A stretch of DNA of 36,228 nt from Nostoc sp. 106C (GTDB lineage Bacteria > Cyanobacteriota > Cyanobacteriia > Cyanobacteriales > Nostocaceae). The stretch lies in the NCBI RefSeq assembly GCF_002154725.1, contig NZ_MTAW01000061.1, positions 1 to 36,228 of the forward strand. The letters are read 5' to 3'. Under the pieces are notes generated by a model. That model saw only the letters and a program-made list of their open reading frames with translations. It had not been told where the DNA came from and ran no database searches. Below are positions 4,887 through 25,744 of the stretch, one piece after another. Numbering within the stretch: the first letter of the stretch is position 1; each line of letters begins with the position of its first letter. The translations under genes were made by a program, and so were the position numbers.

Positions 4887-7800
4887 ATGGGTAGTCCTGA
4901 AAACTTTGGGACCAACAATGCATCTTCTAGCAATGGTGGGATAATGCCCTTATCTCTACTAGAAAGTGCATCCTTGGGCGCAGCGTTGGATGATAATTCT
5001 GCCTTAATATCATTGCAAAAAACTCTCAGGACGCCCAGTGGCTCTGACCCCATAAACTCAGAATTAGCAAGTCTAAAAAAATCGCCAAATGCCACAGAAG
5101 ATAATCAATCCTCTCAGGATAGTACTAACTACACTTCACCTGGTAGCAACATCTTTGGTCAAGAGCAGTTATCTAACCAACCGCAGAGTTTTATAAACAC
5201 TTCCTTATTCCCTAGTAGTAACAATAAAAACTCTAACAAGGCAAAGGATAAAGATTCGCTCACAGGTAACGCTAAAGACACTTCATTAATCGGCATTACC
5301 GAACAAAACTCTCTCACTACTGGAGCATTGGGGATAGAACAATCCCAACAAAATTCTTCACCCTCCACAGCCAAAACCAACTCTAGCGCATCTACAACCA
5401 ATCAAACTACCATCCCCAACTTTGCCATTCGTACAGAAGGCACTATCAGCATTAATGGTAGTTCCGATTTCGATGGCGTACCAACTGACTTGAGTGATGA
5501 TGCGCTGATTTATGCAGCCAAGGGATTTACAATTAACGGCAACCCCACATTACCTGTTCAAAGAGATGCTCAGGGTAATCCGATTCGAGATGCATCAGGT
5601 AAACTAATTCTCGTAGATAAAGCCGTCGCTGTCGCCGCAGGCTACACCGTCACCAACGGACCGAGTAATCAGTATGCAGGCTTAAATCCCCCGACAGTAG
5701 TACCACAACAGACAGTCACCGTTCCAGCCTATGCAGATATCAAACAGCTGGAGTTGGCAAAAAGAATTCCCAACGGAACGCCGACTGTTACCTTCAACAT
5801 TTCCCAAAACCCCATCAATAATGCTAACGATTGGTCGAAGAAATTTCCACCTCCAGGGACAGCGAGTAATCCTACTGTTGTGAGGGTAACAGGTGGCGGA
5901 CTGAATATTCCCGCCAACGTTACCTTAAACAACTACGTCATCACCGTCGAGCAAGGAGATATAAATTTCAACGGTAACGGTCACAATTTTAATAATGTTG
6001 TCCTCGTTGCTAATAACGGCAACATCAACCTGTCTAACGTGCAAGCTAGGGATTTGTCTGTTTTCGCTTCCGGTTCTATCAACATGAACGGTGGCGCAAG
6101 ATTTGCTGGTTCTTCATTGCTGGCGAATGGCAGCAATAATGGCAACATCACCTTTAACGGTGCTACTAGCAGCACAAATACAAATGATAACCTGAAGGTT
6201 ATTTCCCAAGGAGATATCACCTATAACGGTGCATCGAACACCCGTGGCTTATTTTTGAGCGTCAAGAACTTTACCTTTAATGGCAGTTCCACCTTATATG
6301 GTTCAATTAGTGCCAAAGGTAATATCATCTTCAACGGTAAAGCCACAGTGATTGCTGTAGCTGAGTTAATGCCAGACATCACTGCACCTATAATTACCGC
6401 TACATTAGCTCGCGATACTGCACCTCTTGGACAAACTAATACAGATAAAATTACCTTCGACCCGACGATCGCCGGAACTGTGATTGATGCTAGTCCAATA
6501 CTGGAGTTTCGTGCTGGCTTTAATAATACCCCACCCACCAACTATACCAATGTTATTGCCCAGCGCAATAGTGATGGCAGCTTTAGTTTTACTCGCGCTC
6601 AACTAGAAACTATTTACGGCAGTACGCTCTTAGATGGCATTTACACTCTGCACCTGCAAGCAAAGGATTTATACGGCAACCTCTCAAACAGCTTTGATGT
6701 TACCTTCACTCTCGACACAACTACACCTGACCCTAGTAACTTAGACCTGTCTGCCATTGACGACAGCGGTGCTAATAATACTGACAATATTACAAATAAA
6801 AAATTACCTGCTATTACAGGTAATGCTGAAGCTGGTGCAGTAGTTCAACTCTTCAATCAAGGACAAATCCTCGGTCAATCAACAGCCAATAATGCTGGTA
6901 CATGGCAGATAGTTACTAGCGACCTCACAGATGGTACTTATAATCTCACTGCAAGCTCAACTGATATTGCCGGGAATGTCAGCACTGCATCTAATCCACT
7001 ACAAGTAGTCATTGACACAGTTGCTCCTAATGCTCCTACTAATTTAAAACTTACAACAGCCAGCGATACTGGAGTTAGCAACAGCGACAATATTACTAAA
7101 AACGCTACCCCAACCATCCAAGGCAGCGCTGAAGCTGGAACGATAGTGCGCCTATTCAAGGATGGACAACTAGTAGGACAGACAACTGCTAGTGTAAATG
7201 GTGCATGGCAATTGCAAGTTGGGCCGTTGACTGATGGACAACATATTTTTACTGCCTCTTCAGAAGATAAAGCAGGTAATGTCAGCGTTTCATCTAATCA
7301 ACTAACGGTTACAGTTGATACGCAAATTGCACCACCCAGCAACTTAGATTTGCTAGCAGCAAGCGATCGCGGTTCTAGCGACAACGATAATATCACTAAT
7401 GACACTACCCCAACTATTGCAGGTCATGCAGATGCCAACTCCCTAGTTCAATTGTTCAACGATGGACAACTGGTAGGACAAACTACCACCGCTGCTAATG
7501 GGGAGTGGCAGCTTACTACTAACAGCTTGACAGATGGCGTACATAACTTCACAGCGATCGCCACTGATAGCGCTGGCAATTTCAGCAGTCCTTCAGCACC
7601 ATTAGCTGTTACGCTCGATTCTGCGTTACCACTGTTAACACTAAATACTCCGCTGGAGACGACACCGCTAATACCAAATGCCAGATTCATCGGCAGTATA
7701 GACGGTACTGGTTCGGCTGTCACAGCACTTAGCTACCGCTTCAACAACCTAGCAGCAGTTGCAGTAGCATTCAACGCCACAGGCGGCTTTGATCAAGCTT

Positions 7801-10800
7801 TCGATTTGACTGGACTCAACAACGGTTCGCACATCCTCACGATTACTACAACCGATAAGGCAGGTAATGTCAAGACAAATCAATATAATGTCACAGTTAT
7901 TCTGGATCGAGAAGCACCTGTAATTAGCGCTAGACTGACACGAGATACAGCCCCTGGTGGGATTACCAATAGCGATACGATTACCTTTGACCCTACGTTT
8001 GCGGGAACTGTAATTGATGCCAGTCGCGTAGTTGATTTTCGAGCGGGCTTTGACAGCACACTTATGGCTGACTTTACCAATGTTACGGCACTGCGCAATG
8101 CCGACGGTAGCTTTAGCTTTGACCGCACTCAATTAGCAACGATTTACGGTAACACATTACCAGATGGCATCCATACCTTGCACTTGCAAGCAGTCGATGA
8201 ATTTGGCAACACATCTAATGTTTTTGACATCAGCTTCATTCTTGATACTATTACGCCAGAACCTGTCTTTAACCTAGATGCGGTATCTGATTCTGGTGTA
8301 GCGGGCGATCGCCAAACTAAATTTGATACTGTAACTTTGGTGGGTCAAAGTGAGGCATATGCTACTGTTGTTCTAGAACAAATTGGTGCGGTCACAACCT
8401 CAGACCACAACGGACAATTTAGTTTCACCAATGTCCAGTTAGCCATTGGCAACAATTCCCTAACCGCACGCGCAACTGATATTGCTGGTAACGAAAATAC
8501 TTTCTCTACAAACATCTATCGATTTAGTCCACCGACTGCGATTAACTTAACAGGCAACATAGTTGCTGAAAATAGTATTAGCGGTACGGTCATCGGTCAA
8601 CTTAGCAGCACTGACCCTGATGCGGGAGATAGCCATACCTATACTTTAGAGGATGATGCTGGTGGGCGTTTCCGCATTGTTGGCAACCAGTTACAAGTAG
8701 CTGATGGTACACTGCTTAACTTTGAAAGTAGCACCCAGCATTCCATCACAGTCAAGAGTACTGATACTAACGGCTTAAGTAACAGCTTTAAGTTGACTAT
8801 TGGCGTGACCAACGTTAATGAAGCACCCAGCTTTACCAGCACGCCCATATCGACAGTTGACTTGGGTAGTTTATACAGATATAACATCGTCACCAGCGAC
8901 CCCGATGCGGCAGATACCAGAAGAATCATTGCAGATAACCTCCCCAGTTGGTTAACTTTGGTGGATAACCTGGATGGAACTGCAACCTTGAGTGGTACAT
9001 CTACCAACTTCTTGGATAACACCAACATCAACTTGAAAGTTACTGATGCGGGTGGGCTGACAGCAATTCAAGAGTTTACTATTACTTCTAGTAACGCTTT
9101 GGTAGAAGGAACTAACTTTACAGCTTCTCGTAGCTTCCCTGTGACAATTGGCGCAACTCCTTCTATCCTCAGCTTTAAGATTGACAAGAGCTTCGATACA
9201 ACTGATATAGATGCAATTAATGATGCCTTGGAAGTAGCATTAATTGATGCCAATGGTAAATCCTTAGTTCATACTATTGCCAGCGGTCGAGATGCCTTTT
9301 TTAACTGGACGGAAGGTGAATCTGCGCTATTGGGTGCAGGTGCGAGTTATGATGCTGCAAGTCGCACTGTTAGCTTGAATCTCACTGGTATTACCCCTAC
9401 TAATGCACAATTAGTGTTCCGTCTGGTAAATAACGATAGCGACACCACTAGCAGCGTGCGGATTACAGATTTTGCCATCACAGCAGCACCTACTGGCACC
9501 CAACCTCCAGTGCAGTCTGATTTTGGTACACAAACATCCCTCAACACTGGGAATGTACTCCTCTTTAATTTGCTTGCAGATATCTCACAAAGCTTTGTTG
9601 CTGAGTACCATCGTACCAGCTTGAATGCAGATAGCCGCCTGCTGTATGCAGATATCGCAATCCGCAATATTGGCTCCTATAGTATTGATGCTCCGTTGAT
9701 TGTGGCTGTTAACCACATTAGCAACCCCAGCGTTTTGGTACGCAACTCTGATGGCTTTACACCAGAGGGAGTTCCTTACTACGATTTCAGCAAGTTGGTA
9801 GGCGATAGCAAACTCGATCCTCAGGAACTGACACAACAGCGCAGTCTCATCTTTTACAATCCTAACTCTGTGCAGTTCACCTATGATTTATCAGTGCTGG
9901 CCCAATTAAATGCTGCTCCTGTTATTCAAACTCAAGCCAACAAGGAAATCATTACTGGACATTCCTACAGCTATGATGTTGATGCTACAGACCCTAACGG
10001 TGATTCTCTTACGTATAAACTGCTGGTTTCTCCTCAGGGTATGACCATTGACTCAACTAGTGGTTTGATTAGCTGGAATACAACGAGCAATAACATTGGT
10101 AACTATGCAGTTGAAGTCGAAGTCAGCGACAGTCACGGTGGTATTACAAAGCAACAGTATACCTTAGCAGTAATTTCACCACCGCCAAATCGACCGCCCC
10201 TCTTTACCTCTATCCCAGTAGTTAACGCAGCAATTAATACTAATTATACTTATCAAGCAAAAGCCATCGATCCAGATGACAACCCCTTAACTTTCTCCCT
10301 TGCTAGTGCTCCTGAAGGCATGAGCGTTAACCCCAATACAGGAGTGATAACTTGGAAGCCTAATGGCAATCAGCTCGGCTTGCTACAGGTAATCTTGAAC
10401 GTGACCGATGGCTTTGGTGGCACTACCCAACAGCGTTTTCAGATTCAAACGCAAATTGAGCCAGGAAACCACGCACCTATCATCACTAGCACAGCGCCTA
10501 CAACTGCTTATACAGCTACAGGTTATACCTATCAAATACAGGCTTTAGACGCAGACCAAGACACCTTGACCTATGCCTTAGATACAGCACCTGCTGGTAT
10601 GACTATTGATGCCACAACAGGACAAATATTGTGGACAACAAAGTCCAACAATGCAGGTACTTACAATATTGCCGTGAAAGTGTTAGATAAGCGAGGTGGT
10701 GTAGATACTCAGAACTTTACTTTAAATCTGTCAAGCAACCTGCCAGGACAAATTTGGGGACGAGTATTTGCAGATGGCAGCAATCTACAACTAGGTTCAT

Positions 10801-13800
10801 ACAGTTCGCAGTCACAGCCACGACCGAGAACTGGCAATCGACTAGCAGCACAACCAATTCCTCTGACCTCAGTCCTTAACCTTCCCAACGGTTTTTACTC
10901 TGCCAGTGGTATGGAGTACTACGAACCCGCAGAGCAAATTTTGATTTCAGATACAGGTTCTACCCGCACTACCTCTAGACTTAATCTGATTCAACCAGAC
11001 GGAACCTTAGTGCCATTTTCTAATGTCACGCAAGATGTTGGACCCAGCTCCTCTGGAATTGCCATCACAGCACTACGCTATTTCACTACAGTTCCTCAGG
11101 ATAATCTTGGTGGGTTCACACCAGGAGACATTTTTGGTAACGCTGGATTTAGGTATTCAAGTTTTGGCTATGACCCTTATATTACAAAAATTACAGACGG
11201 GGGAGCAACAATTATTCCTCAATGGGCAGCCTTGCCAGCAAATTTGACCTATAGGGAAATCTCCTTCCAAATTGATACAACAGGCATATTTGGAGGAGAC
11301 CTGATTGTGCAAGGGTCTACTAGTGTAGATTCCAGAGGTTACGATCTGTCTAAATCCACACTTTTCCGAGTCAAAGCTGATGGTACGGTTAGTCGTCTTG
11401 CTACCTTGGATAATGACTATGGTGGCAATACCTCTTTTGAAATTGTTCCTAACGACTCTGCAAGATACGGTCCTTTAGCTGGCAAGATTATTGTGGCGCA
11501 TAACGGAGCATTTTCTACCGTTGATGTTGCAGGTAATGTTCAATATATTCCCTTACAGGGATCTGGAAGTATTCGGTTAATCCGTCCTAATGAAAATTTG
11601 TTTGCTGGAAGCTACAGTTATAATCCTCAAACTCTGTTAAGTATTCCTGCATCTAATTTTCAACCGATGGTGGGTGACTTTTTAATTGGTGGAGATGGTG
11701 GCCTTCTTAGACGTATGTATTGGGATGGTCAGGCAATAAAAATAGAAATTTTGAATGGACGACAGCTAGCAGGAATGACCTTTGCACCTGTAGGTATTAA
11801 TAACATTGCATCTGTCAGTCCTGTGAGTTTAGCTGACTGGACCGTATATGTCGATAAAAACAATAATGGACGGCGTGACTCGGATGAGTTATCTACCACA
11901 ACAGATACTAACGGTATTTACTCATTTACTCTACCAGTAGGCAATTACACCATAGCGCAAGAATTACCAGGAGGATGGAGCCAAATCAAGCCAGCCTCTA
12001 ATCAACCAATTCAAGTTACCCTCAGTAGCGGTCAGACAATTACCGGGGTTGACTTTGGCAACATCAAGAGCGACCCCGCACCACAAGAAAATCAAGCTCC
12101 TTTATTTACCAGCTTTGCGCCGACTCAAGCTATTGCCAATCAAAGGGTAGTTTATAAAGCAGTTGCTTCTGACCCAGATGGAGATGTTTTGAGCTACGAC
12201 CTGGTAGTTAAACCAGATGGAATGGTGATAGACTCCAATACAGGAATTGTTGCTTGGCGTCCAACATCTGAACAAGTTGGAACTCAGAATGTGATTGTGC
12301 GGGTACGAGATGCTCAAGGGGCACTAGACTTGCAATCATTCCAAGTCCAGGTAGGTTCATCGCAGACACCACCTTTATTTACAGCTTTACCCAAGTCTGG
12401 TTCGGTTGCAGCAGTGGGAGTACCCTTCCAGTTCCAAATCCAAGCTCGCAACCCAGCCCTAGACCCGATAACTTTTGAGCTAACAACAGATGCTCCCGGA
12501 GTTGTCTTAGACTCATCTACGGGGTTGTTTAAGTGGACACCCACTGTAGAAAAAACTTATAACTTTACAATCACAGCAAATGATGGCAAGGGAGCCAAGA
12601 CAACAAAGTCTTTCCAACTTCAGGCACTAAAAAATGTTCCTAATGATGCTCCGATCATTACTTCTCAACCTCCCAGCCAAATCACACCACTGGGACTTCC
12701 TTACGTTTATACTGTTCAAGCCAGCGACCCAAACAACGACCCCCTGACTTATACCCTAGTGACTGCACCCCAAGGAATGACCTTGGATAAGTTAGGCAAT
12801 CTCTTTTGGCAACCTCAAGCTAACCAATTAAGACTCAATTCTATAGCTATTAAAGTCAGTGACGGTCGAGGTGGTGAAGCTACTCAAAGCTTTAATGTTA
12901 ATGTTGCCAGCAGCGCTACTATTGCTAACCATGTACCTAGCATTACCTCCACTCCTGTCCAGTCTGCTGTGGTTAACAAGGTCTACCAATATGAGTTGAA
13001 GTTCAGCGACCTCGACAATGATTTTCTGCTCTTAAACCTGAAACAAGCACCCCAAGGAATGTTCCTTGACCCAGCAACTGGAATTTTACGTTGGATTCCA
13101 ACAGAGGCACAATTGGGAGAAAACACTGTAGTAGTGCAGGTACAAGATTCGCACGGTGCATTTGACTTGCAAGAGTTCAAAGTTAATGTCCGGCTTGTAA
13201 ATACTCCACCTGCAATTAATTCCAATCCTCCAACAGTTGCATCTGCCGGAAAACTCTACAAATATCAGGTGCAAGCCACTGATGTTGATAGTGACTCTCT
13301 TGCTTATAGTCTAGTCAATGCCCCATCTGGAATGACGATTGATGCTAAAACTGGACTGATTCAGTGGACTCCTACTAATACTCAACTGGGGCGGCAAGAT
13401 ATTATAGTTGCGGTCAATGATGGTCAAGGTGGCAGTGCCAATCAAAGTTATAGCTTGCTGGTAAGTGACACGGCGGTGAATAATGCGCCTGCTATTACTT
13501 CTGTTCCAATTACTGTTGCTGCCGTAGATAGACCTTATCAGTATCAAGTTGTTGCTTTTGATCCTGAAGGACAATCTTTGCAGTTTGCTTTAGAAAATGC
13601 CCCATCTGGAATGACGATTGATGCGACTGGATTATTGCAGTGGCATCCCACTATTAGCCAGATTGGTTCGTATACAATCAAGATTTTAGCTACTGATGCT
13701 GCTGGTGCGGTGGCAGTACAGAACTATACTCTGCTTTTACGTGCTAACGCTAGCCCGATTATTAATTCTCATCCATCCCTGATTGCAACTCTAGATACTG

Positions 13801-16800: not shown

Positions 16801-18911
16801 ATGATGCTTTGGGTCGCTTGACAGGCGTGAAAAATGCGCTCCAAGACTGGACAGAATACGGCTACAACGAGGTCGGCAACTTAATTTGGATGGAAGATGC
16901 TAACGATCATCGCACTAAGTATGAATATGACAGTGTTGGTCGTCGCACAGCAGTCATCTTGCCAATGGATCAGCGTTCCGATAGTGTTTATGATGCAGTT
17001 GGCAATCTGAAAACATATACTGACTTCAATCGCAATACTACGACCTATCAGTACGACCCCATGAACTGGATAACTTCTAAGCAGTTCCAGGATGGATCTA
17101 AGGTAACGTATGCTTACACAGCAGTAGGGTTACAGGATGTTATCACTTTTGTTGATGCTAATGGTGTAACTACTGCAATCTACGATTATGATTACGATGA
17201 GCGCGATCGCCTCGTTAAGCGTACTGATAATATTGGTGGGGTAAGTCGCAATATTAGCTACACCTACGATGCAGCAAGTAATCGCACTTCAGTTACTACC
17301 GCATCCGGTACTGTTAACTATACTTTCGATGTCCGTAACCGCCTTGACCAAGTAATTGAAGATGGGGTTGTTACAACAGATTATGACTACGACGTGGTAA
17401 GTAATCTGGTGCGTACTACTTTTGTTAATGGTACGCAAGAAATTCGTCAGTACGATGACCTCAATCGTTTGAAATATTTAGAAAATCGTAAAGGTGATAG
17501 TGTGCTCTCAAGCTATACCTATACCTTAGACAAGGTGGGCAACCGTACCAAAGTTGTAGAACATGATGGACGTACTGTTGATTACACTTACGATGACCTA
17601 TATAGGTTAACTCAAGAGAAAATCACTGATAGTGTTAATGGTAATCGCATTTATGAGTACAACTACGATAAAGTTGGCAACCGCACGGCTAAGAATGAAA
17701 CTGTCAACGGTACTACAAAGGTTACTAACTACGGCTACGATGCCAACGATCGGCTATTAAATGAGACAGTTAATCAACAGGTAGTTGTTAATTATACCTA
17801 CGATAATAACGGGAACACTTTAACTAAGACTGAAAACGGTATTACAACCGAATACAGTTGGGATTATGAAAATCGATTGATTGCCGCAAGGTTTAAGGAT
17901 GCTGATGATATAACACAACAATCAATGCAGTATCAATATAACGATAATGGCATTCGGGTTTCATCAACAGTTAATGGTGTTGAAACACGGTATTTAATTG
18001 ATGAGGTACAGCCGTATGCACAGGTCTTGGAGGAATATTCCCCAAATGGTGCTGTGCAGGTTGAGTACTTTTATGGCAATGATTTGATTGCACAGGGGCA
18101 GGATAACAGTCGTACTTACTACCATGTTGATGGTTTAGGTAGTACACGAGTGTTGACTGATTTAAGTGGTAGTGTTGTTCACACTTATGATTATGAAGCT
18201 TACGGAGAATTAATTAGCTCTACTGGTGGGGTAGAGAATAAGTACCTGTTTGCTGGAGAACAATTTGATGAAGTACTGGGAGATTATTATAATCGGGCAA
18301 GATATTATGATGCTGATACAGGAAGATTTATCAAAAAGGATGATTATGAGGGACAAATTAGTGAGCCATTGACTTTACATAAGTACCTTTATACTCATAA
18401 CAATCCTAGTAATTTTATTGACCCAACTGGACTTTTTACTGTAGCTGAAATATCCGCAGCAGATTCAATCCGCAATATACTATCAAGTATACAGATTGAT
18501 CTTGGAGCGAATCTTATAGGAAACATTATAGGGAATAATGAGCCAATTTCTGATGATTATTATATATTAGTTAATTCAGGAGGTTTAGACCTTAATGAAC
18601 GAGTTGTAAACTACCTTGAAAACTATACCACTAGAGATTATGCAATTCGATTTTTAATTTATGGAGGCGCGTTACCAATTCCTAAAAGACTTATAGGAGT
18701 TCCTGTTTTACCAGGTAGTAGTAAATTGACAAATCCAATTAGTATTATAGGGTTACATCCAGCCGTTAGAAGAAGGTTAAGGCTACCTAGAAGAATTCTA
18801 GGCACTACAAATGCTGTAAGAGCATTAGGCCGTGCTAATGTAATATTGGCTACTGGTTTATTAATTTATGATGCAGCATTATTTGCGAAAAACTTAATAA
18901 ATGATGATTAA
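4887..18911 (+). CDS. Giant Ig-stalk RHS/YD-repeat polymorphic toxin or adhesin
   Basis: The 4674-residue product begins with a Ser/Asn/Thr-rich tract (1-170) and no Sec signal. Residues 176-494 repeat GNI.FNG-like motifs, a beta-helix or bactofilin-like pattern. Residues 495-1310 hold Ig-like modules: two long related ones (about 495-618 and 1009-1122), three Bap-type repeats (617-910) and a cadherin-like unit (1215-1310). Eleven modules of about 93 residues (He_PIG/cadherin-like, opening N-x-x-P-x-I/F) start near 1311, 1675, 1769, 1861, 2402, 2495, 2587, 2681, 2772, 2866 and 2955. An SdrD-B-like unit (DKNNNGRRD) is at 2312-2392. The RHS part starts near 3239 (GYGW near 3278), with dozens of YD repeats to about 4450. 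The RHS core (YYHVDGLGSTRVLTD) ends in DPTGLF at 4512-4517. A 157-residue AT-rich tip follows. RHS shells encapsulate a C-terminal toxin; here the adjacent PPIase, ABC and HlyD genes suggest type I export. Confidence 0.93.
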   Translation: MGSPENFGTNNASSSNGGIMPLSLLESASLGAALDDNSALISLQKTLRTPSGSDPINSELASLKKSPNATEDNQSSQDSTNYTSPGSNIFGQEQLSNQPQSFINTSLFPSSNNKNSNKAKDKDSLTGNAKDTSLIGITEQNSLTTGALGIEQSQQNSSPSTAKTNSSASTTNQTTIPNFAIRTEGTISINGSSDFDGVPTDLSDDALIYAAKGFTINGNPTLPVQRDAQGNPIRDASGKLILVDKAVAVAAGYTVTNGPSNQYAGLNPPTVVPQQTVTVPAYADIKQLELAKRIPNGTPTVTFNISQNPINNANDWSKKFPPPGTASNPTVVRVTGGGLNIPANVTLNNYVITVEQGDINFNGNGHNFNNVVLVANNGNINLSNVQARDLSVFASGSINMNGGARFAGSSLLANGSNNGNITFNGATSSTNTNDNLKVISQGDITYNGASNTRGLFLSVKNFTFNGSSTLYGSISAKGNIIFNGKATVIAVAELMPDITAPIITATLARDTAPLGQTNTDKITFDPTIAGTVIDASPILEFRAGFNNTPPTNYTNVIAQRNSDGSFSFTRAQLETIYGSTLLDGIYTLHLQAKDLYGNLSNSFDVTFTLDTTTPDPSNLDLSAIDDSGANNTDNITNKKLPAITGNAEAGAVVQLFNQGQILGQSTANNAGTWQIVTSDLTDGTYNLTASSTDIAGNVSTASNPLQVVIDTVAPNAPTNLKLTTASDTGVSNSDNITKNATPTIQGSAEAGTIVRLFKDGQLVGQTTASVNGAWQLQVGPLTDGQHIFTASSEDKAGNVSVSSNQLTVTVDTQIAPPSNLDLLAASDRGSSDNDNITNDTTPTIAGHADANSLVQLFNDGQLVGQTTTAANGEWQLTTNSLTDGVHNFTAIATDSAGNFSSPSAPLAVTLDSALPLLTLNTPLETTPLIPNARFIGSIDGTGSAVTALSYRFNNLAAVAVAFNATGGFDQAFDLTGLNNGSHILTITTTDKAGNVKTNQYNVTVILDREAPVISARLTRDTAPGGITNSDTITFDPTFAGTVIDASRVVDFRAGFDSTLMADFTNVTALRNADGSFSFDRTQLATIYGNTLPDGIHTLHLQAVDEFGNTSNVFDISFILDTITPEPVFNLDAVSDSGVAGDRQTKFDTVTLVGQSEAYATVVLEQIGAVTTSDHNGQFSFTNVQLAIGNNSLTARATDIAGNENTFSTNIYRFSPPTAINLTGNIVAENSISGTVIGQLSSTDPDAGDSHTYTLEDDAGGRFRIVGNQLQVADGTLLNFESSTQHSITVKSTDTNGLSNSFKLTIGVTNVNEAPSFTSTPISTVDLGSLYRYNIVTSDPDAADTRRIIADNLPSWLTLVDNLDGTATLSGTSTNFLDNTNINLKVTDAGGLTAIQEFTITSSNALVEGTNFTASRSFPVTIGATPSILSFKIDKSFDTTDIDAINDALEVALIDANGKSLVHTIASGRDAFFNWTEGESALLGAGASYDAASRTVSLNLTGITPTNAQLVFRLVNNDSDTTSSVRITDFAITAAPTGTQPPVQSDFGTQTSLNTGNVLLFNLLADISQSFVAEYHRTSLNADSRLLYADIAIRNIGSYSIDAPLIVAVNHISNPSVLVRNSDGFTPEGVPYYDFSKLVGDSKLDPQELTQQRSLIFYNPNSVQFTYDLSVLAQLNAAPVIQTQANKEIITGHSYSYDVDATDPNGDSLTYKLLVSPQGMTIDSTSGLISWNTTSNNIGNYAVEVEVSDSHGGITKQQYTLAVISPPPNRPPLFTSIPVVNAAINTNYTYQAKAIDPDDNPLTFSLASAPEGMSVNPNTGVITWKPNGNQLGLLQVILNVTDGFGGTTQQRFQIQTQIEPGNHAPIITSTAPTTAYTATGYTYQIQALDADQDTLTYALDTAPAGMTIDATTGQILWTTKSNNAGTYNIAVKVLDKRGGVDTQNFTLNLSSNLPGQIWGRVFADGSNLQLGSYSSQSQPRPRTGNRLAAQPIPLTSVLNLPNGFYSASGMEYYEPAEQILISDTGSTRTTSRLNLIQPDGTLVPFSNVTQDVGPSSSGIAITALRYFTTVPQDNLGGFTPGDIFGNAGFRYSSFGYDPYITKITDGGATIIPQWAALPANLTYREISFQIDTTGIFGGDLIVQGSTSVDSRGYDLSKSTLFRVKADGTVSRLATLDNDYGGNTSFEIVPNDSARYGPLAGKIIVAHNGAFSTVDVAGNVQYIPLQGSGSIRLIRPNENLFAGSYSYNPQTLLSIPASNFQPMVGDFLIGGDGGLLRRMYWDGQAIKIEILNGRQLAGMTFAPVGINNIASVSPVSLADWTVYVDKNNNGRRDSDELSTTTDTNGIYSFTLPVGNYTIAQELPGGWSQIKPASNQPIQVTLSSGQTITGVDFGNIKSDPAPQENQAPLFTSFAPTQAIANQRVVYKAVASDPDGDVLSYDLVVKPDGMVIDSNTGIVAWRPTSEQVGTQNVIVRVRDAQGALDLQSFQVQVGSSQTPPLFTALPKSGSVAAVGVPFQFQIQARNPALDPITFELTTDAPGVVLDSSTGLFKWTPTVEKTYNFTITANDGKGAKTTKSFQLQALKNVPNDAPIITSQPPSQITPLGLPYVYTVQASDPNNDPLTYTLVTAPQGMTLDKLGNLFWQPQANQLRLNSIAIKVSDGRGGEATQSFNVNVASSATIANHVPSITSTPVQSAVVNKVYQYELKFSDLDNDFLLLNLKQAPQGMFLDPATGILRWIPTEAQLGENTVVVQVQDSHGAFDLQEFKVNVRLVNTPPAINSNPPTVASAGKLYKYQVQATDVDSDSLAYSLVNAPSGMTIDAKTGLIQWTPTNTQLGRQDIIVAVNDGQGGSANQSYSLLVSDTAVNNAPAITSVPITVAAVDRPYQYQVVAFDPEGQSLQFALENAPSGMTIDATGLLQWHPTISQIGSYTIKILATDAAGAVAVQNYTLLLRANASPIINSHPSLIATLDTVYAYDVIASDVDGDRLTYTLDQASRNLGMTLDTLGRLRWTPTTSNVGSHHVVLSVSDGVALQQQEFDLVVASDTIAPKVSLIANYNQVNLGETVIFQARATDNIKVAGLQLLINNTPVVLDANGMARFTPNQAGTIIAKAIATDTAGNIGQVTFDVAVIDTSDVNAPEVSLDLGAYAGNLVTAPIDIKGSISDDGSLDYYRLLVAPVAGGEFKQILFVDNPNVIANGVLGKFDPSLLQNDSYILRLEVADNGGHISYAEEVVDVAGELKLGNFRLSFTDLSIPVTGIPITLTRTYDTLTSASTDDFGYGWRMEFRDTDLRTSLKRDAEMEELGYYTAFKEGTRVYITLPGGKREAFTFKPKMVEQYDGVYLGQFAKYFYQPEFVADKGVTSTLTVESNFITKGQGTDQFYGFAGNAYNPEDPYFGGKYKLTTKEGVVYEIDAVTGDLLTVTDTNGNKLTYTDAGIYSSTGKQITFERDAQGRIASVKDPMGELIRYTYDANGDLVSVTDRENNTTRMEYKTERSHYLDKIIDPLNRTGIRNEYGDDGRLKEIVDVKGQKVEMSYDQNNSRQTVLDQLGHATIYEYDARGNILTEIDAEGQITKRKYDDDNNILEETVISDRSGPDGFTTKYTYDNKNNKLTQEDALGNITRYTYGAYSRLLTETDALGRTTTNAYDSYGNLSATKDAVGKVTSYGYDGNGQLTSFVDANKQATRFDYDSNGNVTQVTDALGNVTKYTYNRNGDKLTETRYMTLANGQVRELLTKWTYDDNGRVKTMTDAENHTTSYEYDANGKQIAVIDALQHRTEYKYNERGELVETIYADETPDNPFGNLRDISRYDAAGRTIATIDKAGRETRFVYDDVGRLIKTILPDNTPNNWDDNPKTRTDYYSDGLVKAEIDERSNRTEFRYDAVGRLLEIIYADNTPNTLDDNPRTTYKYDKAGQRIAETDALNHTTTYKYDDLGRLIETEFNDKTYTTSEYDNLGRRIAMTEQNDKRTEYRYDALGRLTGVKNALQDWTEYGYNEVGNLIWMEDANDHRTKYEYDSVGRRTAVILPMDQRSDSVYDAVGNLKTYTDFNRNTTTYQYDPMNWITSKQFQDGSKVTYAYTAVGLQDVITFVDANGVTTAIYDYDYDERDRLVKRTDNIGGVSRNISYTYDAASNRTSVTTASGTVNYTFDVRNRLDQVIEDGVVTTDYDYDVVSNLVRTTFVNGTQEIRQYDDLNRLKYLENRKGDSVLSSYTYTLDKVGNRTKVVEHDGRTVDYTYDDLYRLTQEKITDSVNGNRIYEYNYDKVGNRTAKNETVNGTTKVTNYGYDANDRLLNETVNQQVVVNYTYDNNGNTLTKTENGITTEYSWDYENRLIAARFKDADDITQQSMQYQYNDNGIRVSSTVNGVETRYLIDEVQPYAQVLEEYSPNGAVQVEYFYGNDLIAQGQDNSRTYYHVDGLGSTRVLTDLSGSVVHTYDYEAYGELISSTGGVENKYLFAGEQFDEVLGDYYNRARYYDADTGRFIKKDDYEGQISEPLTLHKYLYTHNNPSNFIDPTGLFTVAEISAADSIRNILSSIQIDLGANLIGNIIGNNEPISDDYYILVNSGGLDLNERVVNYLENYTTRDYAIRFLIYGGALPIPKRLIGVPVLPGSSKLTNPISIIGLHPAVRRRLRLPRRILGTTNAVRALGRANVILATGLLIYDAALFAKNLINDD
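18438..18911 (+). other. Variable C-terminal tip (candidate toxin domain) of the giant RHS protein
   Basis: This is the part of the giant coding sequence after the RHS core motif DPTGLF. It encodes 157 residues (4518-4674). The base composition is visibly richer in A/T than the preceding YD-repeat DNA, as expected for tips exchanged by recombination. The peptide has a glycine-rich hydrophobic start (LGANLIGNIIG), a basic stretch (HPAVRRRLRLPRRILGTT) and a hydrophobic C-terminal helix (ILATGLLIYDAALFAKNLI). I see no HNH, deaminase, ADP-ribosyltransferase or RNase signature. The basic plus hydrophobic layout would fit a membrane-acting or membrane-translocating tip, but that is inference. Confidence 0.6.
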
Positions 18912-18924
18912 GCCAGGTTTATAT

Positions 18925-19179
18925 ATGTCTAACGCAGAACAACTAAACATTGAGAGAACTGTTTTAGAGCTTTTAGAGTATTTTGTTTGTGAGGCAGGAC
19001 AAAAACCTCAGCTGACAGATATTTTAATTGATGACTTAAAGGTTGATGGAGATGACTTTGGAATGGATTTCGTTCTAGAACTTCAAAGAAAATTTCAAAT
19101 CAAAATTCCAGCAAAAGAATGGAATGAAGTATTTACAGTCCAGGACGTTGTTAATCTAGTGAAAAGATTTTATCAGTAA
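18925..19179 (+). CDS. DUF1493-type acyl-carrier-like protein without the carrier serine; candidate immunity protein
   Basis: The product has 84 residues from ATG 18925 (AGG about 9 bases upstream). An alternative ATG at 18901 overlaps the giant gene by 11 bases and would add 8 residues. The fold reads as an acyl carrier protein: helix 1 (IERTVLELLEYFV), the loop DDLKVDGDD (36-44), helix 2 (FVLELQRKFQIKIP) and a final TVQDVVNLVKRF. In true carriers the loop is D-S-L and the serine takes phosphopantetheine; here Gly42 occupies that place, as I recall for DUF1493 proteins, so it should not carry acyl groups. Its position, directly after or overlapping the toxin tip, is where polymorphic toxin loci keep the cognate immunity gene. 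That role is inferred from context and has not been shown. Confidence 0.8.
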   Translation: MSNAEQLNIERTVLELLEYFVCEAGQKPQLTDILIDDLKVDGDDFGMDFVLELQRKFQIKIPAKEWNEVFTVQDVVNLVKRFYQ

Positions 19180-19743: not shown

Positions 19744-19841
19744 ATTTAAAGCCATCAAGCCATGATGCTAAAGGGAAACACTAATATCACTAAATTAAGT
19801 CGGAAGTATTAGGTGGGAATTCGGAAGTGATAAATAAATTA

Positions 19842-19901
19842 CCTCCGACTTCCGACCTCCGACCTCCGACTTCCGACCTCCGACTTCCGACCTCCGACTT
19901 C
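19842..19901. repeat. Heptanucleotide tandem repeat array (CCTCCGA/CTTCCGA)
   Basis: About eight to nine consecutive 7-bp units alternate between CCTCCGA and CTTCCGA-like forms, just upstream of the PPIase gene. Two separate related units (TCGGAAGT) lie nearby at about 19799-19806 and 19831-19838. This is the reverse complement of the heptamer at 67-90. It fits the short tandemly repeated repetitive sequences of Nostocales and may be replication-slippage prone. Confidence 0.85.
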
Positions 19902-19934
19902 TAAAATTCCCCTCACCTTGCTGCATCTTACCCT

Positions 19935-20834
19935 ATGGCTCAAATTCTCCAATTTGGCAACCACCGCATCAGCAATGCAGAAGTTTTTCCCATGCTTGCT
20001 GGTTACCAAATGCTACCGCAATTGTGCCGCTTCTTAATCATCGATCAGGCGATCGCCCCCATCTCCCTCACCACAGAAGAAAAAACCAGCGCCATAGAGC
20101 AGTTCTACCAAAAAAATCAGCTAGCCACCCCAGAAGCACGCACAAAAACCCTAAAACATTACTGTATGAGCGAGGCACAACTAGAAGCCCTCGCTACCAG
20201 AGAATTAAGAATTGAAAAATTTAAAATCGCCACTTGGGGAAGCAAGCTAGAACAATACTTTCTGCAATATAAATCCCAGCTAGACAAAGTAATTTATTCC
20301 CTAATTCGCACACCAGATGCAGAAGTTGCTCAAGAACTCTACTTTCGCATCAAAGCAGGAGAACAGACATTTGCCGAATGTGCCAAGGAATACTCGCAAG
20401 GACAAGAAGCCCAAACAGGAGGAATGCTAGGCCCCGTTCCCATTAGCCAACCCCACCCAGAGATTGCCCAAAAACTCGCCATCTCTCAACCAGGACAGTT
20501 GTGGCCCCCAATGCGATTGGATAACTGGGTAGTAATCGTCAAACTCGAAAAGCTAATTCCTGCCCAACTAGATGATGCCATGCGCTCCACCCTCCTCAAT
20601 CATCTATTTGAGACTTGGCTAGCAGAAGAGATGGGCACTGCACCGTTGTCGCTTTGCGACGATGAGCAGGTGGGGAGGTTGGGAGATGGGGAGATAGGGA
20701 GGTCGGGAGATGAGGAGGTGGGGAGGTGGGGAGGTTGGGAGATAGGGAGAAAGAATCGCTTGGCGACGATGGAGAGAATAATTTCACCCCATCCCCTCAT
20801 CACCCCATCACCCCATCTCCCACTCCCCTGGTAA
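19935..20834 (+). CDS. Parvulin-type peptidylprolyl isomerase (PpiC/SurA-like) of the secretion set
   Basis: The 299-residue product has an N-terminal helical SurA/PpiC-like part (1-110, including the LTTEEKTSAIEQFYQKNQ and MSEAQLEALATRELRIEKF segments). A rotamase domain spans about 118-207 (RIKAGEQTFAECAKEYS, QTGGMLGPVPISQPHPEIA). There is no signal peptide, so it may act on the cytoplasmic side, for example to keep an exporter substrate competent. It lies 4 bases before the ABC exporter gene. Parvulins next to C39-like ABC and HlyD genes are a recurring arrangement in cyanobacteria. The last ~60 residues are not family sequence: they are encoded by G-rich/C-rich repeat DNA (20669-20830), giving GRLGDGEIGRSGDE-like text and a Pro/His/Ser tail. 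The original C-terminus was therefore probably replaced. No clear ribosome binding site precedes ATG 19935. Confidence 0.85.
   Translation: MAQILQFGNHRISNAEVFPMLAGYQMLPQLCRFLIIDQAIAPISLTTEEKTSAIEQFYQKNQLATPEARTKTLKHYCMSEAQLEALATRELRIEKFKIATWGSKLEQYFLQYKSQLDKVIYSLIRTPDAEVAQELYFRIKAGEQTFAECAKEYSQGQEAQTGGMLGPVPISQPHPEIAQKLAISQPGQLWPPMRLDNWVVIVKLEKLIPAQLDDAMRSTLLNHLFETWLAEEMGTAPLSLCDDEQVGRLGDGEIGRSGDEEVGRWGGWEIGRKNRLATMERIISPHPLITPSPHLPLPW
20669..20830. repeat. G-rich/C-rich repeat element, copy A, inside the PPIase 3' end
   Basis: A left half of GGGAGAT/GGGAGGT heptamer-like units is followed by a unique centre (AAGAATCGCTT...GACGATGG) and a right half of CCCCATCA-like units. The two halves are partly complementary. 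The 83-bp section 20732-20814 matches 21220-21302 in the next gene at 78 positions. The element supplies the C-terminal codons and the stop region of the PPIase. Confidence 0.8.
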
Positions 20835-20838
20835 CAAG

Positions 20839-23800
20839 ATGACAGAAAGCACTGCCACAATCAAAGAGTTTCTAGCCAGCATCCACCCCTTTGATCAACT
20901 GGATATCGCCACTATTGAGCGCATTTCCACAAAACTTGAACCTTTACGCTACCGCATGGGACAAGCAATTCTCGTGCGCGAAACCCTACCAGCTAGAGTA
21001 GCCATTCTCTACCAAGGTCAAGCTCGTTTACTAGGATATGCCCCTGGTGCTGCTGCTCCAGATACCCTACAACTACTTCAACCAGGGTCAATCTTAGGTT
21101 GGACAAGCTTGCTGCGTGGCGTTCCTTGCGAAACAGCGATCGCCTCAATTGAAACCCTTTGCCTGACGTTGAAAGCAGCAGATTTTCTAACTCTACTAGA
21201 AGAAGATGGGGAGATAAGGAGGTTGGGAGATAGGGAGAAAGAATCGCTTCATGACGATGGGGAGAATAATTTCACCTCATCCCCTCATCACCCCATCACC
21301 CCACCACCCCATCACCCCACCTCCTCATTTGCTACCTACTTCCGCAACCATCCCAGCCTGATAGAAGTCTTTGATTTATTAGGTACAGAACTAGAACGCC
21401 GGGGCAAAAGTCCAGACAATCTCAAAGAACTAGCCATAGTTGCTACAGAACAAGCTACTATCCTTAACCTACCCCCTGGTAAAACACCACTCCAGCAATT
21501 AGACCCCAACTTGCTGTGGCTAGTTAGCAGTAAAGGTTCAAACTATATAGTAGGCGATCGCCTCAATCCCGGCGAAACGCAAGCCGAAATCACTGGAGAA
21601 GTTCGCCTAATCGGTTTTATCGACCCCACACTCCCCATCGCTGCATCCTCCCATCTCCTCACATCCTCATCTCTCTACTCTGATATCTGGGAAAAAGCCC
21701 CCTACGCCCCCCTCAACCCAGAACAACCAGAAGAATTAGAACCAACCTCACTAGTCAAATATCCTCACATATCCGGTCGCGGGCCTGTGGATGGCACTCT
21801 CGCCTGCTTTCAAATGCTAGCGCAACATCTGGGGATGCCATTCCGCCGCGATGTCCTGCGCCGTGCTTTAATCAACAATAAAGAACGCACTGGCAGCATT
21901 TCCATTCAATTATGCGGTGCTTTGGCAGAACTCATGGGACTCACCTCCCAACTCGTCAACGTTCCCGCCGTCGCTATTTCTAAACTACCAACCCCTGTCC
22001 TTATTCCTTGGCAAGATAGTTTTGCTATTCTCTACAAAGCATCTGAAAAAGAACTAATTCTCGCCATCCCAGAACAAGGAATTACCCGCAAAAAGCCAGC
22101 AGATTTTGCTGAAACTTGGGGTGAAGAAGGACAAGTACTACTGCTACAACCTACTAAAGAAACTCCAAAAAAGCGATTTGGTTTATCTTGGTTTCTCCCA
22201 GCGATTAAAAAGCACCGCACTGTACTCATAGAAGTATTTATCGCCTCTTTATTTGTGCAACTATTGGGATTAGCCAATCCCCTAATTACTCAAGTCATTA
22301 TTGATAAAGTTATTATTCAAAACGGTATTAATACTCTCAACGTTTTAGGCTTTCTGCTCATCGCAATGGCTATAGTAGAAGGTGTAATTACTTGGCTGCG
22401 TACCAATCTTTTTGTCGATACCACCAACCGCATCGATTTATCTTTAGGTAAAGATGTTATCGACCACTTGCTGCGCTTACCCCTGCGTTATTTCGAGAAG
22501 CGTCCCGTTGGCGAAATCTCTAGCCGCATCAACGAATTAGAAAACATTCGTTCTTTTCTTACAGGTACTGCCCTGACAGTTGTTTTAGATGCTATTTTTT
22601 CTGTTATCTATATTGCGGTGATGATTTTTTATAGCTGGTTGCTGACTATCGTCGCACTAGCAACAGTACCACTATTTGCACTTCTTACTTTTATATTTGC
22701 ACCAATTATTCGCAGTCAAACTCGAACTAAAGCCGAACGCAATGCCGAAACTCAATCGTATTTAGTTGAGGTGGTATCTGGGATTCAAACAGTTAAAGCA
22801 CAAAATATTGAACTTAATTCCCGCTGGCAATGGCAATCTCGCTATGCTAAATATATTAGCGCTAGCTTTGAAAATGTTCTGACTTCTAATACTGCTAGTT
22901 CTCTCTCTAACTTCCTCAACAAACTCTCCAGTTTACTGCTGCTTTGGGTAGGAGCATATTTAGTATTGCAGCAAAAATTAACTTTGGGACAATTAATCGC
23001 TTTCCGCATTATCGCAGGTTATGTTACAAGTCCCTTACTGCGGCTAATTCAACTGTGGCAGAATTTCCAAGAAACTGCTTTATCCCTGGAACGCTTGGCA
23101 GATATTCTTGATACTCCCCAAGAAACAGAAATTGCTGGGCGCAATAACATTCCCATGCCAGCAATTATTGGTACAGTTCAGTATGAGAACGTTACTTTTA
23201 GTTTTGGTAAAAGTCCGAACCCCCAACTCAATAACGTTCATCTTGATATCCTTCCGGGAATGTTTGTCGGAGTTGTCGGTCAAAGTGGTGCAGGTAAAAG
23301 TACATTAACCAAACTTCTACCCCGCCTCTACGAACTAGACTCTGGTCGCATCAAAATCGATGGCTATGACATTAACAAGGTAGAACTCTACTCCCTACGC
23401 TGTCAAATTGGCATGGTGCTGCAAGATACTTTGCTGTTTGACACTACAGTACAGGAAAACATTGCCTTGACTATGCCTGATGCTACACCAGAAGAGATAG
23501 TAGAAGCTGCCAAAATTGCCTGTGCCCATGATTTTATCATGAATTTGCCTTCGGGTTACGAAACCCGTGTGGGGGAGAGAGGTTCGGCTTTATCTGGAGG
23601 ACAAAGACAAAGAATTGCGATCGCCCGCACCGTATTACAAAACCCACCGCTGTTGATTCTGGATGAAGCGACCAGTGCTTTAGATTATGCTACCGAACGT
23701 CAGGTGTGCTTGAACCTGGCACAAGCATTTAAGGGTAGAACAGTATTTTTTATTACTCACAGGTTAGCAACAATCCAGAATGCAGATGTGATTTTGATGA

Positions 23801-23904
23801 TGAGTACCGGAAGGATTGCTGAACAAGGAACTCATGCAGAACTTATGGCTATGAAAGGGCTTTATTACTGTTTATATCAGCAGCAAGAAGCTTCTAGCGG
23901 TTAG
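20839..23904 (+). CDS. cNMP-domain / C39-like / ABC exporter (HlyB-type, peptidase-dead)
   Basis: The 1021-residue inner-membrane exporter has an N-terminal Crp-like cyclic-nucleotide-binding-type domain (about 18-190), interrupted at 123-164 by a repeat-encoded insertion. A C39-like domain follows (about 305-430), then membrane helices (about 448-740) and the ATPase. The C39 active site is lost: the catalytic Cys position is G319 (VDGTLAC), the His position is S394 (WQDSFAILY) and the Asp position is I410. It should therefore bind substrate without cutting a leader, as HlyB does. The ATPase is intact: Walker A G814-T822 (GQSGAGKST), signature LSGGQ at 918-922, Walker B D942/E943 (LILDEATSALD) and H-loop H974. 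With the PPIase (4 bp upstream) and HlyD (downstream) it forms a type I secretion set. The likely cargo is the giant RHS protein; this is inferred from position. No TolC-like gene is in the window. Confidence 0.93.
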   Translation: MTESTATIKEFLASIHPFDQLDIATIERISTKLEPLRYRMGQAILVRETLPARVAILYQGQARLLGYAPGAAAPDTLQLLQPGSILGWTSLLRGVPCETAIASIETLCLTLKAADFLTLLEEDGEIRRLGDREKESLHDDGENNFTSSPHHPITPPPHHPTSSFATYFRNHPSLIEVFDLLGTELERRGKSPDNLKELAIVATEQATILNLPPGKTPLQQLDPNLLWLVSSKGSNYIVGDRLNPGETQAEITGEVRLIGFIDPTLPIAASSHLLTSSSLYSDIWEKAPYAPLNPEQPEELEPTSLVKYPHISGRGPVDGTLACFQMLAQHLGMPFRRDVLRRALINNKERTGSISIQLCGALAELMGLTSQLVNVPAVAISKLPTPVLIPWQDSFAILYKASEKELILAIPEQGITRKKPADFAETWGEEGQVLLLQPTKETPKKRFGLSWFLPAIKKHRTVLIEVFIASLFVQLLGLANPLITQVIIDKVIIQNGINTLNVLGFLLIAMAIVEGVITWLRTNLFVDTTNRIDLSLGKDVIDHLLRLPLRYFEKRPVGEISSRINELENIRSFLTGTALTVVLDAIFSVIYIAVMIFYSWLLTIVALATVPLFALLTFIFAPIIRSQTRTKAERNAETQSYLVEVVSGIQTVKAQNIELNSRWQWQSRYAKYISASFENVLTSNTASSLSNFLNKLSSLLLLWVGAYLVLQQKLTLGQLIAFRIIAGYVTSPLLRLIQLWQNFQETALSLERLADILDTPQETEIAGRNNIPMPAIIGTVQYENVTFSFGKSPNPQLNNVHLDILPGMFVGVVGQSGAGKSTLTKLLPRLYELDSGRIKIDGYDINKVELYSLRCQIGMVLQDTLLFDTTVQENIALTMPDATPEEIVEAAKIACAHDFIMNLPSGYETRVGERGSALSGGQRQRIAIARTVLQNPPLLILDEATSALDYATERQVCLNLAQAFKGRTVFFITHRLATIQNADVILMMSTGRIAEQGTHAELMAMKGLYYCLYQQQEASSG
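21206..21330. repeat. G-rich/C-rich repeat element, copy B, in frame inside the ABC exporter
   Basis: It has the same architecture as copy A: GGGAGAT-like units, the centre AGAATCGCTT...GACGATGGGGAG, and CCCCATCA units. Bases 21220-21302 match 20732-20814 at 78 of 83. It is read in a different frame from copy A yet keeps the exporter open, encoding Gly/Arg/Glu-rich then Pro/His-rich text (residues 123-164). The flanking protein sequence reads smoothly when the insert is removed. Confidence 0.8.
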
Positions 23905-24106: not shown

Positions 24107-25744
24107 ATGAATACTAATAATAGTAATGGCAATAACGGCAATGGGAATCATAACGGTAACGGGGCTAATGGAACTGGTAATAATGGAAACAGCAATTCAT
24201 CGATACCCTCAATAGTTTCCATCCAACAATTAGAAGAACTAGCAAGTAAAACATCGCCAACTCCCCAAGAAATACAACCCAAACCGCCCTCTACTGCACC
24301 TCGCTACGTTCCTAAATTCGACCAACCAGTAATCTTGCAACAATCCCGGAAATGGTCGCGAGCTATCCTTTGGGGTTTAATTAGTGCTACAACTGGTGCG
24401 ATTATTTGGGCAAATGTTGCCAAAATTGAAGAAGCAGTTTCAGCTACTGGTAAACTAGAACCATCTGGGACTGTTAAAGAAATACAGGCTCCTGTAGGTG
24501 GGGTAGTCAAAGATATATATGTTGAAGATGGCAAGCAAGTGAAAGCAGGAGAAAAGCTATTAAGTCTTGACCCCACAACTGCTAATGCTCAACTTGATTC
24601 TTTCAATAAAATTCGCTCATCTCTAGTCATTGAAAATCAATTCTACCAATCTCAAATGAAGGGTGGGGCTGCTGTTGGCGTTACTAATTTGCAAATTTCT
24701 CATCAAATGCTTGATTTGACAAAAAGTCGAGCTACTTTAGTTGCTGAAAATCAACTATACCGCGCTCAATTAGATGGTAATTTATCCAGGACTTCTTTAA
24801 CGATAGAACAAAGAGAACGTCTACAATCAAATCAAGTAGAATTAGATGCACGGGTTGCTGCTGCGAGTTTAGAAGTTGACCAATTAAGCCGCCAACTTAA
24901 GCAAACCGAAATTAAACTAATTTCAACTAAAGATACTTTAGCTATGAATACAGGGATTTTGGACAATGTTACTCCATTAATGAAAGATGGAGCAATTTCC
25001 AAGATTCAATACCTGAAACAGCAACAGGAAGTAAGTAATGCTCAGTCAGAAATTGAGCAATTACAGCAGGAGCGTTTACGTCTGCAATCTGCTATTGGAC
25101 AAGCCCAAGCTAAGTTGCATTCAACTGTAGCTGTTTCACGTAAGGATTGGCTCACTCAAATTGCAGATAATAACAAAAAGATTGCAGAGATTGACTCTCA
25201 ACTTACTAAAGCTATCGTAGAAAATAATAAGCATATTGCAGAAATTGATTCTCAGTTGAGTCAAACACAAATGAACCTGAAATATCAGGAAATCATTGCT
25301 CCTGTTGATGGTACAGTCTTTGAACTCAAAGCTCATACTCCAGGGTTTGTGGTGACATCGAGCGAACCAATTCTCAAAGTTGTTCCTGATGATGCGTTGA
25401 TTGCTAAGGTATACATCACCAATAAAGATATTGGTTTTGTCAAAGAGAACATGACGGTAGATGTGCGAATTGACTCGTTTCCTTTTAGCGAATTTGGTGA
25501 TGTCAAAGGTACGTTAATTTGGATTGGTTCAGATGCTCTCCCACCAGATCAGATTTATCCCTTCTACCGTTTTCCTGCTAAGGTGCGACTTGAGCGACAG
25601 TCAATTTTGATTAATGGGCGCAATGTGACTTTGCAATCAGGGATGTCGGTTACTGGTAATATCAAGTTGCGTGAGCGGACAGTGATGAGCATTTTCACTG
25701 ATATGTTTGGCTCTAGTGTCGAAAGTCTCAAATTTGTTCGCTAA
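24107..25744 (+). CDS. HlyD-family membrane fusion protein (type I secretion adaptor)
   Basis: The 545-residue product has an Asn/Gly-rich low-complexity N-terminus (1-35) and a Pro-rich linker. One transmembrane helix is at about 84-103 (RAILWGLISATTGAIIWANV). The first half of a lipoyl-like domain follows (VQAPVGG-type motif: IQAPVGGVVKDIYVEDGKQV, about 126-150). A long coiled coil spans about 165-390, with two imperfect repeats ending in IAEIDSQL. The second lipoyl half (KYQEIIAPVDGTVFELKAH) and the beta-barrel and C-terminal domain complete it. This is the periplasmic adaptor that links the ABC exporter to an outer-membrane channel. It lies 202 bp after the exporter gene with no obvious ribosome binding site, so it may be transcribed from its own AT-rich promoter region. 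Confidence 0.93.
   Translation: MNTNNSNGNNGNGNHNGNGANGTGNNGNSNSSIPSIVSIQQLEELASKTSPTPQEIQPKPPSTAPRYVPKFDQPVILQQSRKWSRAILWGLISATTGAIIWANVAKIEEAVSATGKLEPSGTVKEIQAPVGGVVKDIYVEDGKQVKAGEKLLSLDPTTANAQLDSFNKIRSSLVIENQFYQSQMKGGAAVGVTNLQISHQMLDLTKSRATLVAENQLYRAQLDGNLSRTSLTIEQRERLQSNQVELDARVAAASLEVDQLSRQLKQTEIKLISTKDTLAMNTGILDNVTPLMKDGAISKIQYLKQQQEVSNAQSEIEQLQQERLRLQSAIGQAQAKLHSTVAVSRKDWLTQIADNNKKIAEIDSQLTKAIVENNKHIAEIDSQLSQTQMNLKYQEIIAPVDGTVFELKAHTPGFVVTSSEPILKVVPDDALIAKVYITNKDIGFVKENMTVDVRIDSFPFSEFGDVKGTLIWIGSDALPPDQIYPFYRFPAKVRLERQSILINGRNVTLQSGMSVTGNIKLRERTVMSIFTDMFGSSVESLKFVR

Follow-up and report, generated by a model that had tools for sequence, protein, structure and literature searches.

A giant Ig/RHS protein encoded beside a type I secretion cassette in Nostoc sp. 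106C: recurrent linkage and a possible export route for polymorphic toxins

RHS toxins are generally described in connection with delivery by the type VI secretion system (T6SS), Sec, the type VII secretion system or injection-type devices, and those of the T6SS and Sec (WapA) types consist of a YD shell, a DPxG junction and a variable tail, with an immunity gene adjacent to the toxin gene. Adhesins of the SiiE/LapA/BapA type, which leave the cell through type I secretion systems (T1SSs), are giant, repetitive, Ig-like proteins devoid of a Sec signal, are served by a dedicated ATP-binding cassette (ABC) transporter and HlyD adaptor and carry a C-terminal export signal. The locus considered here, in which a gene for a giant Ig/RHS protein precedes a T1SS cassette, is located on contig NZ_MTAW01000061.1 (C14 in this analysis) of the 8.66-Mb genome of Nostoc sp. 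106C, within a stretch of 36,228 nucleotides, the window, to whose positions all coordinates refer. Its giant resembles the adhesins in size, Ig-like repeats, lack of a Sec signal and association with ABC and HlyD genes, whereas the adhesins possess neither an RHS shell nor a polymorphic toxin tail and have their signal at the C-terminus; with the T6SS- and Sec-type RHS toxins it shares the YD shell, the DPxG junction, a variable tail and a neighbouring putative immunity gene, the presumed export route being the difference.

The closest precedent seen for an RHS–T1SS pairing is Rickettsia felis pLbaR_38, in which, according to its description (PMC4316617), a large RHS-like toxin gene immediately precedes type I secretion genes and was proposed to encode their cargo. 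That case is, however, a single locus with an RTX-like T1SS comprising two ABC transporters and a toxin bearing OTU, Tox-SGS and ankyrin domains, and the sections of its description that were consulted mention neither a peptidyl-prolyl isomerase (PPIase) nor an Ig stalk nor a leader. REIS_1424 of R. buchneri was suggested to use either a T1SS or a type IV secretion system (PMC9111745). The terms “type I secretion”, “T1SS”, “HlyD” and “TolC” are absent from the first 300,000 characters of the survey by Zhang et al. 2012 (PMC3482391), and a search by title and abstract opening, with most subscription journals outside its coverage, found no report of T1SS export of cyanobacterial RHS proteins. 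An RTX review ties T1SS cargo recognition generally to the C-terminus (PMC3034196), and a 2024 survey finds cyanobacterial T1SSs to be commoner in host-associated strains, their released products being unexplored (PMC11319675). The locus offers candidate cargo for cyanobacterial T1SSs, and the recurrence of its RHS–T1SS linkage in related genomes suggests a little-described export route for RHS toxins.

The + strand of the window carries, in this order, u3691 (a gene of an unnamed family), the giant gene, a small open reading frame (ORF) resembling acyl carrier protein (ACP) genes, a repeat tract and the genes for a PPIase, an ABC exporter and an HlyD-type adaptor. The giant ORF (4887..18911) encodes exactly 4,674 amino acids, the length given in the original prediction, and is organized, from N- to C-terminus, into a leader (residues 1–38; 4887..5000), a low-complexity linker, a conserved domain (about residues 178–490; 5418..6356), an Ig/cadherin-like stalk (about residues 506–3240; 6402..14606), RHS/YD repeats with the RHS-associated core (15231..18434) and a 159-aa tail (18432..18911). 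The RHS assignment made in that prediction is borne out by 20 RHS_repeat stretches in Pfam (PF05593, 299.4 bits vs a cut-off of 22) and by Rhs_assc_core (TIGR03696) at residues 4436–4516 (66.6 bits vs 32.5). The stalk had been put at about 3200 residues; Ig/cadherin stretches (He_PIG, Big_13, Big_9, Cadherin_5 and Ca_tandemer in Pfam/NCBIfam) are indeed present, but the first ~500 residues are occupied by leader, linker and conserved domain. The predicted lack of a Sec signal agrees with the N-terminus, in which no hydrophobic segment was found: over residues 1–100 the 19-residue Kyte-Doolittle mean peaks at 0.98. Cysteine is absent from all 4,674 residues, the mean Cys content being 0.86% among 477 ORFs of 150–1,199 aa from 60 loci; RTX lipases and S-layer proteins have likewise been reported to be Cys-free (PMC3034196). 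All 17 matches of the RHS_repeat model in the genome fall in this giant, at 15231–17618, which makes it the sole RHS gene by that model.

The exporter cassette starts 1.0 kb after the stop of the giant gene, and consists of a parvulin-type PPIase (19935..20834, +; PF00639 above cut-off), an ABC exporter with cNMP-binding and C39-like domains (20839..23904, +; PF00027 and PF03412 above cut-off) and an HlyD-type adaptor (24107..25744, +); the predicted succession of giant, parvulin, ABC and HlyD therefore holds for all three exporter genes, although not as immediate adjacency. The ABC protein and the adaptor both pass curated type I secretion models (TIGR01846, 737.3 bits vs a cut-off of 725.55; TIGR01843, 232.2 vs 208.65) and the best PDB match of the former is HlyB. 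In a weak alignment (E 0.055) with a solved C39 domain, the columns that we take to be those of the catalytic Cys and His are occupied by Gly and Ser, respectively, so that the C39-like domain is probably inactive, in keeping with the peptidase-dead domain originally predicted. The cassette thereby resembles the HlyB/HlyD hemolysin exporter, having an ABC protein with an inactive-looking C39-like domain and an HlyD adaptor, and differs from it by the additional cNMP-binding domain and parvulin gene and by a cargo without RTX nonapeptides; from the PCAT/NHLP peptide exporters it differs in that the active C39 domain is not recognizable, on the same weak alignment, in the window ABC. TolC-type genes are found elsewhere in the genome, with OEP (PF02321) matches at two loci (contigs C105 and C76) and none in the window. 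Short tandem repeats at 19841–19898, 20668–20829 and 21272–21328, before and within the PPIase and ABC genes, add low-complexity coding sequence. The 1.0 kb that separates giant and exporter holds the ACP-like ORF and a 7-bp repeat tract; promoter- and terminator-like sites in 18800–20100 are, by a simple pattern scan, no commoner than in shuffled sequences, which makes the scan uninformative as to whether giant and exporter share one transcript.

Six further ABC homologues with 41–63% identity (contigs C134, C103, C36, C82, C147 and C77), in addition to more distant ones, are encoded in the same genome and none of them adjoins an RHS gene, as every RHS_repeat match falls in the window giant. 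Because this type of cassette is common, any linkage needed to be judged against such a background. A search for the RHS segment in 145 genomes of the same family gave a match in 49, and the ABC protein was searched in 48 RHS-positive genomes (the window's own being excluded) and in the same 145; the ABC homologues listed fall into two groups, with 75–91% identity (“close”) and 69% or less (“distant”). Linkage was defined as an ABC gene within 30 kb of an RHS-core match, the counts being those among the matches listed and the RHS rows covering 47 of the 49 RHS-positive genomes. Conserved co-occurrence of exporter and RHS genes, a check set beforehand in the original prediction and passed here, was found for 14 of 30 close orthologues vs 1 of 124 listed distant homologues, the latter (G033) lying near a short RHS fragment. 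Restricting the count to RHS-positive genomes gives 14/22 vs 1/46. Four of the close rows, three of them linked, stem from the search of RHS-positive genomes alone, and without them 11 of 26 are linked; furthermore, the linked row G115:C4 represents a PKD/Calx-beta giant whose match is confined to the segment preceding the RHS part. With this row counted as unlinked and the window left out, the strictest figures are 9/25 vs 1/124 (Fisher P 2e-7, a value that ignores relatedness).

In a tree of 32 exporters, which takes in 26 of the 30 close ones and has three long-branched outgroup rows, these 26 form one clade (99/99), on which the RHS label requires 7 changes, at least 6 of them forced by well-supported branches; the association is thus not one inherited block. 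In G115 sister exporters differ in their neighbour, which is an RHS giant for one and a PKD/Calx-beta giant for the other. The linked exporters occupy several branches of the clade and occur in three orientations with respect to the giant, mostly on the same strand but divergent in G090 and G134, where u3691 is still directly upstream of the giant, and convergent in G083. The same-strand order u3691–giant–PPIase–ABC–HlyD is found in the window, G115:C5, G093, G021 and G018:C1 (at 1.5 Mb), is kept in a second G018:C1 locus (9.4 Mb) in which leader and RHS parts are encoded by separate ORFs, and recurs beside giants of non-RHS kind in G115:C4 and, within the stretch read, in G070:C221. Since the window giant is, by the RHS_repeat model, the sole RHS gene of its genome and the linkage recurs in relatives, the encounter of RHS gene and exporter is more than chance, and on the genome comparison RHS giants are genuinely and repeatedly paired with type I exporters of a single clade.

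This clade is not confined to RHS neighbours. Among the 16 close exporters without a nearby RHS match, five adjoin another giant surface-type protein, namely a PKD/Calx-beta giant with an Endonuclease_NS domain (G116:C2), a PKD/Calx-beta giant assigned by eye without a domain scan (G070:C221), an SdrD_B repeat protein (G076:C12), a DUF4347 protein (G076:C164) and a cadherin/DUF4114 protein (G030:C3), while three (G142, G010 and G036:C269) are on contigs that end nearby and eight have no giant in the stretch read. The clade accordingly looks like a T1SS for giant exoproteins, RHS proteins representing one class of its cargo.

The toxin role attributed to the giant finds its support in the C-termini of the relatives. 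The tails diverge after similar cores: among 15 rows, contributed by 13 of 14 loci, 14 different tails are found, in a set that includes the window itself and one row (L009) not established as exporter-linked. Four of ten scanned exporter-linked tails contain PT-HINT, one of these also TreTu_C and one also an AHH nuclease, and the other six show no family above cut-off. These varied and partly recognizable tails back a toxin role for the exporter-linked giants as a class, and this part of the original prediction is upheld by the relatives rather than by the window tail, a candidate toxin delimited by its DPTG junction and length, with a hydrophobic stretch at its end and no match to a known family. 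At the stop of the giant gene, the ACP-like ORF (18901..19179, +) encodes a candidate immunity protein of up to 92 aa (ACP models, E 7e-7, below cut-off) and overlaps the RHS stop by 11 bases when read from its first start codon, an alternative start being at 18925. Matches occur in 7 other genomes of 386 searched, two strong and five weak; both strong ones (G067 and G296) are located in RHS arrays, whereas the two weak ones that were opened adjoin, by eye, FabF-like genes, beside which ordinary ACPs are encoded. The G067 array (L219:3226–8475) combines an orphan RHS C-terminal fragment with small genes, including the immunity homologue and a u3691 homologue.

At the other end of the giant, the leader displays the motif [SN]L[LI][DE].[AS][STN]L, which, in a form worded after the sequences had been viewed, is present in 10 of 10 exporter-linked giants with a start read, in a single one of 19 other giants of RHS or N-domain type, located 35 kb from a close exporter on the same contig, and in a single one of 6 non-RHS-type giants (G115:C4, among the six, lacks it). 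The RHS core is on the leader ORF itself in nine of the ten linked loci, the split 9.4-Mb locus of G018:C1 being the tenth; the linked loci G068 and G083:C2 and the RHS ORFs of G070:C377 fall outside this reading. The N-termini of the other RHS giants with starts read are, by eye, hydrophilic. The conserved domain that follows the linker is beta-rich by eye, with a DUF4097 match below cut-off (alignment A2; alignments A1 and A2 use 34 of 40 and 21 of 26 available sequences), and has matches in 23 of the 145 family genomes, lying in some giants far from the N-terminus.

The gene set as first described was incomplete, a conserved partner gene directly upstream of the giant having been missed. 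This gene, u3691 (3712..4446, + strand, within ORF 3691–4449), encodes a 245-aa protein with no Pfam or NCBIfam match, whose AlphaFold model has a mean pLDDT of 88 and yields only weak fold matches. Homologues are present in 73 of the 145 family genomes and stand directly upstream of giants in G134, G090, G093, G018, G132, G108, G083 and others; further homologues are separated by 4 to 6 kb from distant exporters (G104, G083, G130, G045, G118 and G140). In 22 of 30 u3691 loci the next same-strand ORF runs past the end of the locus, at least 4 of these 22 ORFs not being giants. Twenty loci were read further, 18 belonging to those 30 and two picked for a known nearby RHS match: u3691 is followed immediately by an ORF of >1,000 aa in 12 and with a single small ORF in between in 1, it is not so followed in 6, and in G051 the contig ends; without the two picked loci a large ORF follows in 10 plus 1 of 17. 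From the position of its gene, it may be guessed that u3691 is a secretion partner. This family of about 245 aa upstream of many giants, the N-terminal leader and the candidate immunity gene at the RHS stop are new in the present analysis.

Taken together, domains and gene neighbourhoods are best accounted for by a polymorphic toxin system that uses type I secretion for its giant effector, a reading that we consider probable. The sequences themselves establish gene order, domains, the recurrent linkage, the polymorphic tails and the common N-terminal motif; export, leader recognition, the part played by u3691, surface display, toxicity and immunity are inferred from them. The unfolded RHS giant would leave the cytosol through ABC, HlyD and a TolC supplied from another part of the genome, would be recognized by its N-terminal leader and not by a C-terminal RTX signal, since the C-terminus is the swappable toxin, and might be assisted by the upstream u3691 protein. 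Outside, the Cys-free Ig stalk would fold and hold the RHS shell at a distance from the cell, the tail would act as toxin and the producer would be protected by the ACP-like product of the ORF at the stop; the same exporter clade would also serve non-RHS giants. A giant with a variable toxin at its C-terminus, if exported by a T1SS, needs another mode of recognition, and the question of an N-terminal T1SS signal is therefore directly testable at this locus. A bolder and rather doubtful extension is that of a distinct T1SS subtype, in which an uncleaved N-terminal leader and a dedicated partner of the u3691 family would direct giants to an exporter that has a cNMP domain, a dead peptidase and a parvulin of its own, thereby freeing the C-terminus for swappable toxins; if true, this subtype would join type I secretion to polymorphic toxins in multicellular cyanobacteria.

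Several observations weigh against export of the RHS giant by this cassette as an effector. More than half of the close orthologues (16 of 30) lack a nearby RHS match and for eight of those 16 no giant at all was seen; for the nearest RHS relative by sequence (Nostoc sp. CHAB 5844), the 2.8 kb that remain on the contig downstream of it contain no PPIase; and many RHS giants of the family, among them those combining the N-terminal domain with an RHS core in G104, G130 and G118, genomes without a listed close ABC orthologue, have no close orthologue of the window exporter nearby, which weakens a one-to-one relationship. The leader motif was formulated post hoc and, when searched in 388 genomes of the order, yielded no independent case of use, the sole new match being a coiled-coil protein on a contig without an exporter homologue. 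The RTX nonapeptide GGxGxD is absent from all 4,674 aa; the claim made here concerns a T1SS-exported giant and not an RTX protein. Finally, the last 146 aa of the giant have no Pfam match and the last 121 aa were not found in any other of 386 genomes of the phylum. The predicted movement of the RHS protein by the exporter is thus only partly supported: the linkage recurs, in three orientations and on several branches, but the exporters of this clade also adjoin giants of other kinds, and are not dedicated to RHS proteins, and many RHS giants are found without them.

Alternatively, the exporter could serve some other cargo, for instance another giant or a small protein, with the RHS gene hitch-hiking in a recombining island where conflict and surface genes accumulate. 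Such an island is suggested by a 640-bp direct repeat, a duplicated unnamed gene whose 90% identical copies (2603..3242 and 26212..26851, both +) flank the whole module, by the tyrosine recombinase gene to its left, and by paralogous cassettes without RHS in the same genome as well as by the unlinked close orthologues; nevertheless five of these 16 adjoin another giant surface-type protein, the gene order is preserved with both types of cargo and the listed distant homologues are linked in a single case among 124, so that hitch-hiking appears unlikely. The stalk, made mostly of Ig and cadherin-like repeats, the adhesin-like giants next to other members of the exporter clade and the lack of a toxin match in the window tail would also suit an adhesin or an S-layer-like surface protein whose RHS shell and tail are structural and non-toxic. 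This would leave unexplained why the tails of linked relatives differ after similar cores, several bearing pretoxin HINT, TreTu or AHH nuclease domains, and why a small ORF with both its strong homologues in RHS arrays sits at the stop, and we rate it as quite improbable. As to exit by a T6SS, contractile injection or lysis, it would agree with the non-T1SS routes of most described RHS toxins (listed in PMC3482391). Unlike T6SS-delivered Rhs proteins, however, the window giant has no PAAR or VgrG match, and neither it nor the scanned neighbouring ORFs match PAAR, VgrG, TcdB or WXG/LXG models of Pfam and NCBIfam, which renders such exit very improbable.

The repeat gene and the recombinase gene (1070–2116) may provide a possible way for cargo modules to move or to be swapped; the gene of the 640-bp repeat is also present around giants in G090:C7 (L132). 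To the right of the module, the − strand between 27085 and 33418 encodes a 1,634-aa TPR-CHAT protein beside a DUF1822 protein and a 231-aa protein without a known family, possibly a separate conflict or signalling cluster, and the start of a group II intron-type reverse transcriptase (RVT_N, RVT_1) is found at the contig edge (35574–36191). Downstream of an RHS giant in G121, a 779-aa fusion protein (L128:14490–16829) has a parvulin part 43% like the window PPIase and another part 42% like the product of 27085–31989.

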